32,658 nucleotides of DNA from Candidatus Methanovorans sp. (GCA_020793565.1 DQIP01000219.1:1-32658), one strand, 5' to 3'. Positions 1-28,242 are shown, numbered from the stretch's first letter. Translations and numbers: made by a program. The notes: generated from the letters alone by a model not told the origin.

Positions 1-68
1 GCCGTATGCGGTGAAAGTCGCACGTACGGTTCTTAGAAGAGGGAGAGCGAGTAATCGCTCTTTCTTAT
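1..68 (+). ncRNA. Group II intron 3' end: domain V and probable domain VI (intron truncated by window edge)
   Basis: gccgtatgcggtgaaagtcgcacgtacggttc matches the canonical domain V pattern: GCCGTA/TACGGT stem, GCGGT-GAAA-GTCGC tetraloop hairpin. Followed by AGAGCGA-gtaa-TCGCTCT, a domain VI-like hairpin. Confidence 0.85.
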
Positions 69-73
69 TCGGC

Positions 74-19916: not shown

Positions 19917-20100
19917 CGAGGAAATCTTCGCTAACTCTCAGATTGACTCGGACTACATAATTCTATAAATTATATACAACGAGGAAATCCCCTGCGGTCG
20001 GATTAACTTGGACTACATAACCTTATGGCTATATAGTACGAGAAATCCTCGATATACTCGAATTGACTCGGACTACATATATAGTGTATATATAGTGTAC
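19917..20100 (+). repeat. Three tandem copies of the ~60-65 nt two-hairpin repeat (R1-R3)
   Basis: Copies begin at 19917, 19980 and 20039; each has CGAG(G)AAATC...GATT(G/A)ACT(C/T)GGACTACATA followed by an AT-rich palindrome. Confidence 0.88.
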
Positions 20101-20145
20101 ACTATAATATAATCTCCAGAAAGTACAACATAATACATTCAAGTA

Positions 20146-21375
20146 TCATTTGGACTTATAAGCGAAATCGATATCATTTACTATAATATCCTTAAATAAT
20201 ATCCTCAAATCCCATAGTAGTTTCTTGTTCGCCTTATAAAGGGCATACAGAAGGTTGAAAAGGCTCATGCTGCTGAAATTCACATCTTTCAGGGAATATG
20301 CAAGTGAATTAAGTTCATCATCTGTGAATTTGACGAATGTCTCCTTGACTATGAGACTGCCATCAATCTCACGTCCGATCGTTTTACGCCATCTTGTTTC
20401 ATATTCTTGCAGCATGTTTGTTGACACGTCTCCTGCCGCAATAGATTCAATGGCAACTTTTCCTGCGATCTTTCCCGCATCCATTGCATTAATGATACCA
20501 CCCCCTGTGATGGGATCGGACTGCCTTGCAGCATCACCTACAAGCATGAGTCCGTTTGCAATTGTACACTCAATTGTACCGCTAACCGGCACACCTCCAA
20601 CAACCATCTCGATAATCTTCCCGTCAGGCATGTGTTTATTGATAAAATCTGTAAGTAGGGTCACTGCTCTTTTTTTACCTTTACCGGATTTACTACCCAA
20701 CATGCCTATGCCCACATTAGCCTGGTTCTTGCCTTTTGGGAATATCCATATGTACCCTGCCGGCGCGATCTCAGTTCCAAGGTAAAAGTCGCAATAATTC
20801 TGGTCAATTTCAATGCCTGCTACCAAAAACTGGACACACGTCTCTATATCTGAAGGCTTAATGGACGTATCAATACCTGCCCACCTACCCACTTTAGACT
20901 CTATCCCGTCGGCACCGATCACGATCTTTGAGCGTATGGTGTATTCCTCACCAAGATGCATTAACTTTACGCCACAAACAAAATCGTCTTCAATGATAAG
21001 TCCGGTTGCACGTGTTTTGACCATTATGTCCGCACCGGCAGATGCGGCATCGTTGACAAGTGCCCTGTCAAACAGTTTGCGTTCAAGTACGTATCCCACT
21101 TCCCCACCAGATATTTCTTCTGCCATCTCTATTTTTGTTCCGTCAGGCGAGAAGATACGGGATCCCTTTACATCAGCACATATCCAGCGTGGGTCAGGTT
21201 CAATGTGCTGTCGCAAATGGAATTTTCCGACACCTTCTCCGCATCGGACCGGATCGCCGATCTCCTGGCGCTTTTCAATTAGCAGCACATCAAGTCCCGC
21301 ATAGGCAACTGTTTTTGCCACAATTGACCCGGCAGGACCAGCTCCTACAATAATCACATCATATCGGTCTTTCAT
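20146..21375 (-). CDS. Geranylgeranyl reductase family protein (archaeol biosynthesis)
   Basis: [68 protein letters not shown]. Confidence 0.93.
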
Positions 21376-21548
21376 CTGTTCACCTCAATAGCACCAACAG
21401 GACATATCTTTGCACAGGTCCCACAACTCAGGCATGTTTCATCAGCTTCGATCCAGGTTTCAATGAGTTCAAGTGCACCTGTTGGACAAACCCCAACGCA
21501 TGCACCGCAATATCCGCATTTGTAACGATTAACATCAATGGTCAACAA
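21372..21548 (-). CDS. 2x[4Fe-4S] ferredoxin, 58 aa (absent from the ORF track)
   Basis: TTG start after [67 protein letters not shown]; two CxxCxxCxxxCP motifs; ATGA overlap with the reductase start. Confidence 0.9.
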
Positions 21549-21840
21549 TGATCACCCACAATATAAAATGTAATAAATATTAAAGCACTCCAGTTTAGAT
21601 AAATGTTATGTTGATGGAGTGATACACCATATACATTCCAGTTTTGGTCAAACTATATGGTATTTTGATCGTATGTAATTTACATACCGGTTTGGGATTG
21701 TCGAAAATATAAGCATTTCCGATTGTCTTTACCACAACATTTAATTTTTCAATAGTAATTGCCGTTGGATCAATCTATATTTGTGCAGTGATTAATCATG
21801 TACAATAGTATCAAAACCATTCCACCACATGCGAAATTAA

Positions 21841-22470
21841 TCACACAATATGCGAAAGTTTAATTCTCCCGTTGCTAATATCAATACCAAACTTTTGCTC
21901 AACATAATCCTTTGACATTCCATGCCCATGCACTAAGAGTTCAACAATATCCTGTGGCTCATCAATATCAGTGCTTGCTAAAAAAGAATCATAGACAAAC
22001 ACTGATTGTGACATCTCTTTTGCGATATCACAATGGGTTTTGTAACTTGAACCATAGTATTTGACAGAGAACCGTGCAGGTTTCTTTATGTAGAGGATAT
22101 TCGTACCCCCGCCTTTGCCAGGCACGATTGTAATATCCTTATCCGATGTTGTGATCTCACAGATATGTTGTGGGGTAACAAGCGGCATGTCTGCCATTAT
22201 TATCAGGACCGGTTCATTTGTTTTTTTAAGATACGTATTAAGCACTTCATTCAATCCCAATTCACTAACAATGACATTCGCTTCAATATCATCAGGCACA
22301 CTATAGATTGATGTTGTGAGAATATCAATTTCATCAACACCGGCTTTAGAAAGAGTATCAACCACGTCTTTTAGCATAAGTTCAACAAACTTCTCACGTT
22401 CTCCGAGTGTTAATACAGGAGAAAGCCTGGACTTTGCATTTTCTTTTTTATATGGTATCACTGCTCTCAT
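21841..22470 (-). CDS. cofC: 2-phospho-L-lactate guanylyltransferase
   Basis: [40 protein letters not shown]...[16 protein letters not shown] 1 nt after the cofH stop. Confidence 0.92.
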
Positions 22471-22471
22471 A

Positions 22472-23563
22472 TCATAAACTCCGGTATATAGTAGTTCGCT
22501 GTTTTGGATCTCTTCCGGCACCCCGGATCAGCCATTCGAATTCTTTCGGAGACATATATTCACCATGAGTTGCACCTGCGGACTTTGATATTTTCTCTTC
22601 CATGAGTGTGCCCCCAAGGTCATTGGCACCGCAATTAAGCGCGAATTGGGCGAGTTTTTTCCCGAGTTTTACCCAGCTTGCCTGAATATTATTTACATGC
22701 GTATGAAGGAGAACACGTGCTATTGCATGCAATTGCAGGTCTTCAAGTCCGGTTGTGCTGAACTTACCTGATCTTAACACTTCTTCACCGAGATTGTTGT
22801 TATAAGGCATGAACGGCAGTGGTACAAATTCCGTAAATCCACCTGTTTTTTTCTGGATATTTCGTATAGTCAGGATATGGTCGATCCGCTCCCCTATGGT
22901 TTCAATATGCCCGTACATGATCGTTGCAGTAGTTGGTATTCCGGTCTTGTGGGCAAGCGTGACAACGTCTACCCATTCGGCAGTTTTGAGTTTTCCCGGA
23001 CAGATCAATTTCCGCACGCGGTCAGAAAGTACCTCAGCAGCAGTGCCTGGCATTGTATCAAGCCCGCTTTTTTTCAGTTCAACCAATGTGTCCTTGATCG
23101 TCATATCACTCAAACGTGCTGCGTGATATACTTCCATGGGAGAAAATGCATGTATGTGCATTTTGGGATATTCTGCTTTTATCAGTTCAAGTATGTTCTG
23201 GTAAAAATCAACTTCAACGTATGGAAGAAGTCCTCCCTGGATGCATACCTCTGTTGAACCGCTTTGATCGGCTCCCCTCACTTTTTCCATGATCTCAGGA
23301 GTGGTCAAACGATATCCATTATCACTATTATCCTTAAATGCGCAGAACCTGCAGGTTCCCACACACATGTTTGTGAAATTTATATTCCTGTTGACGATGT
23401 ATGTCACTGTATTCCCGACAGAATCCTTTCGCAACTCATTTGCAAGTGAAAAAAGTTCAAGTGGTTCCACATCAAGTAGTTGCAGGGCATCTTCTTTTGT
23501 ACATTCCCCAACAAGTGAGCGTTGAATTATGTCATCCGGTATATTTGAATTTATGAGTGCCAT
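22472..23563 (-). CDS. cofH: 7,8-didemethyl-8-hydroxy-5-deazariboflavin synthase subunit CofH
   Basis: Radical [42 protein letters not shown]-terminus. Confidence 0.95.
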
Positions 23564-23780
23564 TTCCGATCATATCCATTTGTTTACCTGCCATTTAATA
23601 GTCAAGAACATAATGTCTTTGATACATATCCTGAACACTTTGCGCTCTTGGCATCCCGCACACCCGCAGGCGTAGCAGTACTCAACTCCGTAGGAGATGT
23701 CCTTTTCAGTAGTATGATCCAGGTCACCGCAAAGAGCACGAAGCCCGCAAAGATAGTTTAAATTGTTTGTTTTTTGATAG

Positions 23781-23846
23781 TATATAGTATATGATCTATA
23801 AGATTATGTAGTCCGGGTTAATCCGACCGTAGGGAGGATTTTATCG
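23781..23846 (-). repeat. Two-hairpin repeat, copy R4 (minus strand)
   Basis: Reverse complement CGATAAAATCCTCCCTACGGTCGGATTAACCCGGACTACATAATCTTATAGATCATATACTA. Confidence 0.85.
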
Positions 23847-23869
23847 TTCTGTAATACAGCATGTTATGT

Positions 23870-24868
23870 TTAAGCCTTGCGATATCCATCTTCATCAGCT
23901 AACGTTTCTATTAGCCTTTTAACACCACTGCCATACCATCCTTTTTCGATATATTGCGGATATATGGGCAATCTCTCACGTAAGTGTACACTGCGCATCA
24001 TCTTTTGCAGTTTTGAAACACCGGGCCATTCCGCTTCAGGATTAATCCAATCAATAGTTGTCGGCGATATGCCGCCCAGGTCAGATGCACCGGACCGGAC
24101 CAGAAGATAAGGGTCAATAAGGTTTGGAGCAACCTGAACCGCAATATCGCAGGGCAGGATATCGCGTGCAAGTGAAACCGCCTGTATCATTTCCTGTTTT
24201 GTCGGTGGCTTGTGCTGGCTCATAGTTGTGCCGGATTTTGGCATGAAGTTCTGGATAATAACTTCCTGAATGTGCCCGTATGTTTCATGGATATTTGCGA
24301 TAGCCTGCAATGAGTCTATCCTGTCATCCACAGTTTCCCCTATGCCGACCAGGATACCTGTTGTAAACGGGATATTAAGTTTTCCTGCCGCTTTTATAGC
24401 ATCAAGCCGCACAGCAGGATGCTTTCCTGCACAATTATGGTGTGCGCCGCCATCTGCATCAAGTTTTGCAGTGGTCTCAAGCATAAGCCCGAGACTTGCG
24501 TTCAAAGGTTTCAGGACTTTTAGCTGGGAACTATCAAGGATACCTGCATTGGTATGTGGCAACAGACCAATATCGATCGCTGTTTTGCACAATTCAGCCA
24601 CATATTCTACTGTTGTTGAATATCCGAGTTCGTTGAGCCATTCCCGATATTCCACAATCTCTTCGGCATATTCCCCAAACGTAAAAAGAACTTCAGTACA
24701 TCCTGCCTTTTTTCCATTTTTAAGAATGGGAATGATGTCCCAAAGAGGCATAAGATGTGCATCATTGTCACCCGGGTCGCGCCTGAACCCACAGTATCCG
24801 CACCTGTTCCTGCAGATGTTGGTCACAGGTATGAATACGTTGCGACAATATGTAACAAAGTCTGGCAT
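23870..24868 (-). CDS. cofG: 7,8-didemethyl-8-hydroxy-5-deazariboflavin synthase subunit CofG
   Basis: VTYCRNVFIPVTNICRNRCGYCGFRRDPGD radical SAM motif; LGGISPTTIDWINPEAEWP. Confidence 0.95.
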   Translation of the reverse strand: MPDFVTYCRNVFIPVTNICRNRCGYCGFRRDPGDNDAHLMPLWDIIPILKNGKKAGCTEVLFTFGEYAEEIVEYREWLNELGYSTTVEYVAELCKTAIDIGLLPHTNAGILDSSQLKVLKPLNASLGLMLETTAKLDADGGAHHNCAGKHPAVRLDAIKAAGKLNIPFTTGILVGIGETVDDRIDSLQAIANIHETYGHIQEVIIQNFMPKSGTTMSQHKPPTKQEMIQAVSLARDILPCDIAVQVAPNLIDPYLLVRSGASDLGGISPTTIDWINPEAEWPGVSKLQKMMRSVHLRERLPIYPQYIEKGWYGSGVKRLIETLADEDGYRKA

Positions 24869-25157
24869 AGTAATTGGATTAATGAAAGAACCACTACATA
24901 AGTTTAGTCAAATAAGTACGGCGAATGTTGTGCCATAATTTCCAACAGCCAGTCCCAAAATAAATTAGCATTGCGTAAATGAACGATATTTGGTCGCAAT
25001 CAGGTAATTATTCATAAAATTAAAATATTTTCACATATATGGGACATAATGTCTGATTTGTGTACATGATTTGGTTTTTGGAACCTTGACTCTGCTTTTC
25101 AGGGAATATACCAGATCCAATTGAAACTGATATGGTCCTGTGAAATGGTTTTTCCGA

Positions 25158-25307
25158 TTACTTCTTTATTTTAAGCGAAACTTCGCTCCAGCCATCACCA
25201 ACACCGTGCAGTGGCTCAACTGCCCCGCTGACTATGTTGCCAAGTATCTTCTGTACAAAATCGTTCATAACTATCTTTTCACCATCAATTACCAGTTCAA
25301 TTTCCAT
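25158..25307 (-). CDS. Small conserved-looking protein, 49 aa (absent from the ORF track)
   Basis: MEIELVIDGEKIVMNDFVQKILGNIVSGAVEPLHGVGDGWSEVSLKIKK*; GGTGATC SD; 20 bp downstream of the moaA stop on the same strand. Confidence 0.75.
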   Translation of the reverse strand: MEIELVIDGEKIVMNDFVQKILGNIVSGAVEPLHGVGDGWSEVSLKIKK

Positions 25308-25327
25308 GATTGATCACCTTTTCCATA

Positions 25328-26263
25328 TCAATTTCTACAATACGGCACGCGCCGACTGACTGCAAGTTTTAACATCCCTGGCATGTCTTCCGGTGGCGTG
25401 CTACTTACATCAATAAGATCGTCATTGACCAAAAGACATCCTTTAAGTTTTCCATCTGCCGTAACCCGCAACCTGTTACAGTTGGCACAGAACTCTGAAT
25501 TATCGACCGGACGGACAAGTTCTACTTCCGCACCATCAATGATATATTTTTTCCTGCGATGCATTGTCCTGACCCTGATCTCATCTGCGTGCGATCTTAA
25601 GTCTTTTTCAACAGAATTTACATCTATCTGGTAGCGGGATACGTCATTGAAATCCATGAGTTCAATGAGTTGTAAGATCACCTGGCCATTATATGTCCGT
25701 GTAAAATCAAGCATTTCGTATATTTCATTATCATTTATCCCTTTAAGGAGCACCATATTCAGTTTCACAGGCGTGAGCCCTGCGTCTACTGCGTTGTGGA
25801 TGCCATCAAGAACAATGTTTAATGCATTCGAATTGCTGTTTGTGATGAAACGATACATTTGCGGGTCAAGTGAATCAAGGCTGATATTTACACGGTCAAG
25901 CCCTGCATCTTTCAAATCCTGTGCCCGTCCTTTTAAGAATGTGCCATTCGTTGTTGCCGATACATCCCGCAGTTTTGGAAGTGAGGACAGGATATCTTCA
26001 AAATCCTTGCGCATAAACGGCTCACCGCCAGAGAACTTCACCTTATCGACTCCCATACCTGATGCAGCGTGCACGATATTTGATATGGTTTCCACAGGAA
26101 TTTCACCTTTGCTGTCTGTGTCGCCCTCATGATGGCAGTAGATACAATCATAATTGCAGCGATTCGTAATGGATATTCGAAGACTTGTGACCGTACGTCC
26201 GAATGGGTCGGTAAGTGAATCCGATGTTTGGGCTACCAGGGGTGAGTTCATACCTGTGTACAC
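25328..26263 (-). CDS. moaA: GTP 3',8-cyclase (molybdenum cofactor biosynthesis protein A)
   Basis: SITNRCNYDCIYCHHEG radical SAM motif; VDKVKFSGGEPFMRKD; C-terminal FCANCNRLRVTADGKLKGCL. Confidence 0.95.
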   Translation of the reverse strand: MYTGMNSPLVAQTSDSLTDPFGRTVTSLRISITNRCNYDCIYCHHEGDTDSKGEIPVETISNIVHAASGMGVDKVKFSGGEPFMRKDFEDILSSLPKLRDVSATTNGTFLKGRAQDLKDAGLDRVNISLDSLDPQMYRFITNSNSNALNIVLDGIHNAVDAGLTPVKLNMVLLKGINDNEIYEMLDFTRTYNGQVILQLIELMDFNDVSRYQIDVNSVEKDLRSHADEIRVRTMHRRKKYIIDGAEVELVRPVDNSEFCANCNRLRVTADGKLKGCLLVNDDLIDVSSTPPEDMPGMLKLAVSRRVPYCRN

Positions 26264-26354
26264 ACGCGGTGTTTATTTAACTATTTTGAATCTGGCATTT
26301 GCCATGGAAATAGCAGTTTCATATGCCTTCGGTTAAGAATAATATTGTGATAGA

Positions 26355-26404
26355 ACACGGATTTCACAGATGACACGGATGCGTACGGATTAATACCATC
26401 CGTT
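26355..26404 (+). repeat. Fragment of a cacggat-type intergenic repeat
   Basis: gaacacggatttcacagatgacacggatgcgtacggatt: periodic (a)cacggat motif. Confidence 0.5.
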
Positions 26405-26451
26405 GAAATGCGTTGAATTCATGTCATTTGTATTCGATTTGAATTGCAGAT

Positions 26452-26515
26452 CGAGAAAATCTTCGCTGACGCTCCGATTAACTCGGACTACATAATCTTA
26501 TAGATTATATACAAC
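26452..26515 (+). repeat. Two-hairpin repeat, copy R5
   Basis: cgagaaaatcttcgctgacgctccgattaactcggactacataatcttatagattatatac; closely matches R1. Confidence 0.88.
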
Positions 26516-26641
26516 AAGAAATATATTATCTTTTAAAATTTGAAAAACGATATATGTTGGATCATTAAAACCCCTTTGGTCGATGGGCAATGAATGTAAA
26601 TTAAGATACAAATAATACGATTTGCTCACGCCTACCTTATA

Positions 26642-26984
26642 TCACTGAATCATTTCCTTTAGATATTGAAGCACATCCTCAATAAAAACTTCGGGCGACT
26701 CAAAAGGTTTTGCAACATTTTGATCATGTGCATGATATGGAAATGTTTTTATGTTTTTCCAGTGGGGAGCATTGTCCCACCTCCTGACCTCCTTTTTGCA
26801 AGTGATACGAATATCGCCTAAAATCGATGCCAATACTTTCGGTTACCTGTAAAACATAACCTTTTTTTAGAATCGATTTCACTCTCAATGATTGTACAGG
26901 AGGTTCAATGTTTATGTCAAGAATTTTTATATCCACTACAAGGTCACTGGACGAAAGATCAGCAAGAATATGTGCTACTGTCAT
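26642..26984 (-). pseudogene. TumE/DUF6516-like toxin, frameshifted
   Basis: Frame 1 MTVAHILADLSSSDLVVDIKIL...RRYSYHLQKGGQE continues in another frame as RRWDNAPHWKNIKTFPYHAHDQNVAKPFESPEVFIEDVLQYLKEMIQ; the shift lies near ggaggtcaggaggtggg. Confidence 0.75.
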
Positions 26985-27280
26985 GCCAACTTTTTCCAGT
27001 ACTGGCGCGATTTAATGTAACTTTCCCACAATATGAAATCATCCCATTCCCCAAAGGATTCATCACCAGTTTTTGCGTCGATATTTTGTTCGAAATCGGA
27101 AAAATTCATCATGTATTTTTTTTCCATTTCGCCTATTTTCTTTGTATAATAATCCACCTTATGTGTCGCCTGATCATGCACAAGACTGCGGAGAGCTTCG
27201 CGTTCGTTCTTGTACAAGCCAATTTTAACCATATCTCTTATTGGCTTAAAGATATCACGCGATACTTTTACATATTCCAT
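26981..27280 (-). CDS. Putative antitoxin of the TumE-like toxin
   Basis: 99 aa; 4-bp ATGA overlap with the toxin start. Confidence 0.7.
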   Translation of the reverse strand: MEYVKVSRDIFKPIRDMVKIGLYKNEREALRSLVHDQATHKVDYYTKKIGEMEKKYMMNFSDFEQNIDAKTGDESFGEWDDFILWESYIKSRQYWKKLA

Positions 27281-27322
27281 AATATCATCTCGTATATCAA
27301 TACCTTCGCCAAATAATCAGCA

Positions 27323-28242
27323 CTAACCACTGTTAATACTTCCGATTTTCGTTATTCGGCTAAATATCTGCTGAATTAAAATTCGCTCTGGTTTTTGCGG
27401 TAGCAATTTTAATATTTCATCAACATATTTGCTACCTCTGAAGTATGCCTTAAGATCTTGGATGCCAAAGTTGGAATCATCCTTCTGAACATTGTGAATT
27501 AATGCCTGAGAAACATTCACCATGAAAAAAGCTAAGTTTGCAGCGTTAGTTACGGGAATCTCCTTGACATTCATAAAATCTTCTAGACCCCAATATTGTT
27601 TTGCATCTCGGAAGTTAAACTCAATCTGAAAACGTAGTTTGTAATAATCGACTAATTTGTCATAGGCTAGCTTTATATCACTGCTGAACAAAATCACATG
27701 ACTCCGTGCATGTGTTTTGAGATTAGTTTTAACGATAATAACCACATTTAGCTTTTTAGCAAAAAGCTTGTGCAGCATAGCCATTTGATAAATCTCAATT
27801 TGAACTGACTTTTCAGTAGTGGTTTCTTTCAAATAATTGGATGGGATGCAACTATAGTCAATTTTATCACCATATTTTTTATGTGCACCACATCCACAAT
27901 ATGCACCTTCATACGGGAAATAGAGTGCAGAATTATATTGTAATTTTGAAATAATGTGCAATTTACATTGTCTGGCCATTTGTAAAGCATTATTATGCCC
28001 AAATGCACCATCAAGTACAATATATGTGATGGGAATGGTGAAACCAATTAGCTTTAACACTTTCTTAATAATACTCTGAATGGTACATAGATATGATGAT
28101 AGTTCGACATCCTCCTTGTTTTTATTTTTACTGCCTTTTGGCCGACCACTTCCTCTTTTTGTAGTGGATTTACTTTTTTGTCGTTTTTTTTATCTTCATA
28201 AGCAACTATTTAAACACGATAAAATAGTCAAAATGTCAAACA
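27323..28242 (-). pseudogene. IS4/IS701-like DDE transposase relic (internal deletion and frameshift)
   Basis: C-terminal half ITYIVLDGAFGHNNALQMARQC...DYYKLRFQIEFNFRDAKQYWGLEDFMNV; upstream KRQKSKSTTKRGSGRPKGSKNKNKED in the same frame, preceded by TAA in an A8 run; start-like MFDILTILSCLNSCL at 28242. Confidence 0.75.

Follow-up and report, generated by a model that had tools for sequence, protein, structure and literature searches.

A ~62-bp two-hairpin repeat of ANME-3 archaea, probably a non-autonomous mobile DNA of REP-like or PATE-like behaviour

We analyzed a family of ~62-bp intergenic repeats represented by five copies (R1 to R5) in a 32,658-nt stretch of 'Ca. Methanovorans' DNA, hereafter the window, which belongs to an ANME-3 (anaerobic methanotrophic archaea, group 3) genome of 2,450,789 bases in 236 contigs (G000). 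The 62-mer is probably a non-autonomous mobile DNA, geneless and lacking terminal inverted repeats, similar to repetitive extragenic palindromic (REP) sequences and palindrome-associated transposable elements (PATEs), and moved in trans by an HUH-like enzyme acting on single-stranded DNA. The units move between genomic sites, have fixed boundaries, enter beside a defined target without duplicating it, grow into head-to-tail arrays and keep their paired structure. A preliminary description of the window had offered three readings, a REP-like element, a non-autonomous mobile element, and a structured RNA or protein-binding array. The first two are supported by the high copy number, the intergenic position, the non-orthologous sites, the empty sites and the identical copies at different loci.

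Insertion beside a pre-existing motif

Units insert without target duplication, right beside an NNANAAA motif that is present before the insertion. Where both flanks are available (77 non-redundant arrays), the right flank reads W-A-N-N-A-N-A-A-A, with 1.65-1.83 bits of information at four fixed A's and no signal past +10, and the left flank is near random except for an A preference at the last two bases. Target duplication was rejected, because the matches expected from it are at chance in these arrays and the unit's first bases are independent of the target's variable base.

Empty sites were sought by joining the two flanks and searching the relatives. About ten filled/empty pairs were detected (examples are L132/L198, L250/L247, L152/L212, L093/L181, L134:3857/its paralogue, and L122/L259), in which the insert measures n x ~62 bp and the NNANAAA motif is already in the empty site. 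Upstream of moaA, the G001 genome is longer than the G004 genome by exactly 62 nt, located between GCTTTTGTCA and TTGTT. Five related ANME-3 species have no unit in the cofG-cofH spacer, which holds R4 in the window.

The element's own end (TTTTCTYG on the folded strand) carries a target-like motif, so that an existing copy offers a new site and arrays are strictly head-to-tail; all within-array neighbours (19/19) have the same orientation. Three contigs of G003 (C38, C207 and C241; L106, L113 and L120) start or stop within arrays of identical units, which indicates that the arrays interrupt assembly from short reads and that their true length is probably greater.

Paired structure and distribution of the family

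The G000 consensus unit is CGAG-AA-AATCC-TC-CC(TAC)GG-TC-GGATT-AA-CTCG-GACTACATAATC-TTATA-GATTATATACAA, 62-63 nt. The two-hairpin plan proposed previously was confirmed, and an extra, third segment of the first stem was found inside the supposed loop. This inner segment is CC-N3-GG, swapped in some copies to GC-N3-GC, and two symmetric internal loops, AA/AA and TC/TC, both conserved, connect the segments. A variant unit was detected in G084 (L307:928-998, L307:4119-4189 and L305:4590-4656), where GAACAAAATCC..GGATTTTCTTG replaces the AA/AA loop, resulting in a longer inner stem. The inverted pair of these variant copies at L307 was considered as a REPtron and rejected, as it encloses ordinary genes.

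Paired positions are kept by compensatory change in both stems, within G000 and between species. In G000 the inner-stem pairs change from C-G to G-C in 11 of the 32 copies, and C-G to U-A is also found. The wider comparison used related copies in alignments fitted to the structure, which biases its counts in favour of pairing: among 98 distinct copies from outside G000 (mostly from other ANME-3 species) 97.5% of cells are paired, 235 cells are doubly changed vs 71 in shuffled data, both sides vary in 11/17 pairs, and pairing drops to 21-39% in slid controls, while a set dominated by Methanocomedenaceae has 96.0% paired cells and 108 double changes vs 28. An independent RNAalifold analysis of MAFFT rows also recovered the inner stem with covariation. 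The earlier observation that the arms of the first hairpin remain complementary despite loop changes is thus backed by strong covariation that crosses species, and the concern that covariation might not exceed shared ancestry was not borne out.

The stems are better paired on one strand. On the strand in which the window is given, the stem positions contain A.C vs G.U at 79 to 17 and 45 to 23 in two alignments, the bulk of the A.C excess coming from one position (C.A fixed in 32/32 copies, first alignment); A.C on this strand corresponds to G.U/G.T pairs on the complementary strand. RNA folding yields -21.2 kcal/mol (z -4.1) for the complementary strand vs -14.2 (z -2.6) for the window strand, and DNA folding -10.0 (z -3.8) vs -9.2 (z -3.3). 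The A.C/G.U asymmetry together with the better folding points to the complementary strand as the one that folds, which makes hairpins of single-stranded DNA the simpler reading.

The concern that the window might hold the only copies was removed by the genome-wide counts. Exact GGACTACATA occurs 143 times in G000 vs 18 for the reversed control, and CTCGGACTACATA with at most one mismatch 174 times vs 0. With a calibrated covariance model made from 32 G000 copies, the family was detected in 7/7 genomes of the ANME-3 genus, with copy counts per genome that are lower bounds: at least 150 in G000, 149 in G003, 143 in G001, 141 in G005, 124 in G004, 73 in G002, and 40 in G006. In two more genera of this family the copies number 15, 1 and 2, and the covariance model found none in the remaining sampled genomes of that family, including large complete methanogen-like ones. 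The most frequent exact 62-mer was found at nine sites.

A model from cross-species copies detected 3 to at least ~40 copies in 14 genomes of another family (f2), which appears to be Methanocomedenaceae (ANME-2a/b), and 1-6 copies in each genome matched of families f4 and f5. Outside the order, a phylum-wide sample of 295 gave matches in only two genomes, with 1-2 copies each, and the one copy inspected in each has the same plan. Between ANME-3 and ANME-2a/b the consensus unit differs at ~5/62 positions; Methanocomedenaceae copies retain hairpin 1, and hairpin 2 may be wholly different yet still paired. No copies were found in PLSDB plasmids, or in IMG/VR viruses with two stem patterns (the first pattern covered the longer-loop variant alone, the second both variants).

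Proposed mode of movement and other explanations

On the folded strand the layout is target TTTNTNN^ - TWG - hairpin 2 (TATATAATY..RATTATRTA) - STN - hairpin 1 (CYAG-TT-AATSS..loop..SSATT-TT-CTYG)^. By analogy with IS200/IS605 (IS, insertion sequence) and REP systems, we infer that recognition is of single-stranded DNA and that the chemistry is of HUH type. A tyrosine enzyme of the HUH, Y1 type, acting in trans, would recognize the hairpins, cut after the motif at both ends and paste the unit after the same motif elsewhere; new units would join existing ones at the element's own target-like end. TnpA works this way at IS200/IS605 ends, and REP-associated tyrosine transposases (RAYTs) are thought to do so for REPs.

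Several results weigh against this proposal. No mover was found among the Y1 (PF01797) genes of G000 and its relatives or among the copy neighbours. These Y1 transposase genes belong to IS200 copies or their remnants, the ends of which are unrelated to the 62-mer, and no 62-mer copy flanks any of them. No Y1 gene was detected in G003 and G006, which carry the family; these genomes are just 83% and 60% complete. Replication-strand bias is known for some HUH elements, and none was detected here; neighbouring arrays have no common orientation (19 vs 15). A Y1-Mrr fusion of 467 aa in G001 was rejected as the mover, being present in one species only.

The fusion protein itself (L255:1613-3013; G001:C2:28112-29512, minus) has a Y1_Tnp-like stretch (PF01797, E 1.3e-5) in which an HUH motif is not obvious, while a match to an Mrr-like nuclease (PF04471) at the C-terminus falls below the cut-off. 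The protein is full-length in 1/61 genomes. A RAYT/REPtron arrangement was also rejected, since the inspected PF01797 genes are of IS200 type with unrelated ends and no flanking copies. A survey of the Y1 enzyme family found no REP-associated transposase in Archaea, where the IS200 subclass alone was found (PMC6006769).

Among the other explanations, a retro-element is quite unlikely. Reverse transcription of a small structured RNA, by an enzyme of the host or of a group II intron, would be primed at a T-rich target that had been nicked, similar to a minimal SINE (short interspersed nuclear element). The addition of the unit directly 3' of TTTNTNN fits target priming, and a group II intron domain was detected at window 1-73 (RF00029, 53 bits, cut by the window start). 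However, the 5' ends are precise (CRAG) in almost every copy, with no 5'-truncation ladder, target priming gives no reason for a target motif at the element's far end, and the RNA would correspond to the window strand, the worse-pairing one.

It is improbable that the 62-mer is a recombinase cassette, a circular 62n-bp molecule that a tyrosine or serine recombinase would integrate at a short core by using folded single strands, in the manner of integron integrases at attC sites. The head-to-tail arrays, the identical core of target and element end, and the imperfect folded hairpin with conserved internal loops would suit such a cassette, but the insertions are scattered genome-wide at a short degenerate motif with no single platform, and the unit's first base does not depend on the target. 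Inspection of the genes beside the copies revealed no mobile-element or recombinase gene that recurs as a mover would.

The resident IS200-type transposase is a very unlikely mover with the 62-mer as its satellite. Its TnpA is 91-97% identical between four ANME-3 genomes and G037 of the ANME-2a/b family Methanocomedenaceae (L075:1468-1875, L076, L077, L081, L083), and both lineages carry 62-mers. The IS200 ends (AATACTTTCAC... and ...GTGACT) are unlike the 62-mer, the IS200 left flank is not TTTNTNN, no 62-mer adjoins IS200, and G003 has no Y1 match while carrying at least 149 copies. The near-identical TnpA sequences suggest a recent exchange between ANME families.

The third reading of the preliminary description, a functional structured RNA or protein-binding element selected at each site, has very little probability left. 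Both stems covary strongly, as such an element would, but the sites differ between species, the wobble asymmetry described above favours the opposite strand, and the Rfam search matched the unit with no catalogued RNA family. The copies lie between genes, apart from two slight overlaps with ends of open reading frames (ORFs), and their orientation to genes is random (co-directional gaps 18 vs 15; 12 convergent, 9 divergent), on which ground a promoter or terminator role was also rejected. A conventional miniature inverted-repeat transposable element (MITE) moved by a DDE transposase would explain many copies with no coding capacity and can be practically dismissed, since both defining features, terminal inverted repeats and target duplication, fail. 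No element with matching ends was found that would make the 62-mer a catalogued IS end or MITE, a possibility that had been raised at the outset.

Returning to movement by an HUH-like enzyme, we suggest only tentatively that the mover might be neither a RAYT nor an IS605 transposase, but part of a third, archaeal REP-like system common to ANME-3 and ANME-2a/b, with self-targeting arrays and passage between ANME families at seeps. In bacteria, REP-like mobile DNA is well established. The 62-mer provides an archaeal counterpart on clean structural and insertion evidence: genomes hold more than 100 copies, the empty sites are exact, the target is defined, and the stems remain paired from one species to another. 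Two separate families of methane-oxidising archaea carry the element in abundance, and it was found in none of the methanogen genera sampled from the same family. This distribution poses the question whether ANME lineages have exchanged it at seeps. With both the 62-nt substrate and the target defined, the hunt for the moving enzyme can be put directly to the test.

Copies in the window and comparison with known systems

All five copies are present in the window at the positions described previously, with profile matches of 42.0-70.5 bits. R1 (19917..19979, plus strand, 63 nt, CGAGGAAATC...TATATACAA, 63.1 bits) is the first unit of a head-to-tail array, followed by R2 (19980..20038, plus, 59 nt, 56.9 bits) and R3 (20039..20098, plus, 42.0 bits), in which the second palindrome is rearranged or degenerate. 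R4 is a lone 62-nt unit in the cofG-cofH spacer (23785..23846, minus, 67.7 bits), placed also by synteny comparison; its right flank (23771..23784, minus) consists of TATACTA, a 7-nt duplication, and then, according to the target consensus, the A-rich target TCAAAAAA. R5, a lone 63-nt unit upstream of moaA (26452..26514, plus, 70.5 bits), is followed by the target motif CAAGAAAT (NNANAAA by the target consensus; 26515..26522, plus). The five copies share CRAG-AA-AATYY, a loop of 11-12 nt, RRATT-AA-CTCG, GGACTACATA and the AT palindrome. The copies are not chance matches: with up to three mismatches CTCGGACTACATA has 12 matches in the window vs 5.7 expected, the real copies having 0-1 mismatch.

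The gene names given earlier for the window mostly stand (SMC, GGR, CofC, CofH, a radical-SAM protein at the CofG position, and MoaA); the toxin-antitoxin locus placed beside moaA (window 26724-28060) is unsupported, as neither of its two small ORFs has a Pfam match. A DDE transposase fragment (PF01609/PF13546) adjoins these ORFs.

Other small elements were detected in contact with the 62-mers. Besides the 62-mer, G000 holds a second non-coding repeat, a MITE of ~400 bp with GTRTTTGTTTAG termini (GTGTTTGTTTAG / CTAAACAAATAC) and 40 detected copies (L145, L156, L130:1483-1900 and others). It enters the AT hairpin, apparently at TATAAT, and 62-mers have in turn inserted into it at CCGAGAAAAC. 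The same hairpin is repeatedly invaded by a small element with termini GRGGCTGTCCTGCAATT (GRGGCTGTCC) / GGACAGCCYC (L026:1521, L135:4290-4400, L140:1751, L141:1190).

PATEs, described in Haloquadratum walsbyi and derived from IS605-type ends, resemble the 62-mer in being geneless, in having palindromes near both termini and no terminal inverted repeats, and in using a short target oligonucleotide without duplication; their terminal-only forms of 52 bp are of comparable size, and their palindromes, as here, are often targeted by other small elements (PMC3119063). Unlike PATEs, the 62-mer has no detected parent IS605-type element with matching ends (the IS200 ends are unrelated, and tnpB-only elements were not searched), its hairpins show much stronger conservation, with covariation that extends across genera, and its units form head-to-tail arrays because the element end equals the target. 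Like IS200/IS605 elements it enters 3' of a short target, which is not duplicated, and has subterminal hairpins on one strand, but it is 62 bp only, with no TnpA gene within or beside it.

REPs and bacterial interspersed mosaic elements (BIMEs) are similar in their short imperfect hairpin with a conserved internal mismatch, in exceeding 100 intergenic copies and in their lineage-specific sequence (PMC6006769, PMC3733652). The folding strand in G000 reads GTAG-TC-hairpin, like the REP tag; the conserved GTAG/GTGG foot fails, however, as GTAC or ATAG is found in other species. Each 62-mer unit has two hairpins of different sequence, unlike a REP, its arrays are strictly direct and not alternating, and no RAYT gene was found, nor any Y1 gene flanked by copies. 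Rickettsia palindromic elements (RPEs) and CGTC-tagged REPs of Rickettsia and others are likewise small palindromic repeats with no known dedicated transposase, but their sequence is unrelated and the CGTC end tag is absent here; RPEs are sometimes read in frame within genes (PMC3733652), and a distant 62-mer at L332:1500-1570 (G150), seemingly read in frame within a cobD-like gene, appears similar. Since two REP/RAYT features fail (the GTAG tag and the RAYT gene) and no parent IS is known, we do not class the 62-mer as a member of a known system; it is an element that works like a PATE or a REP.

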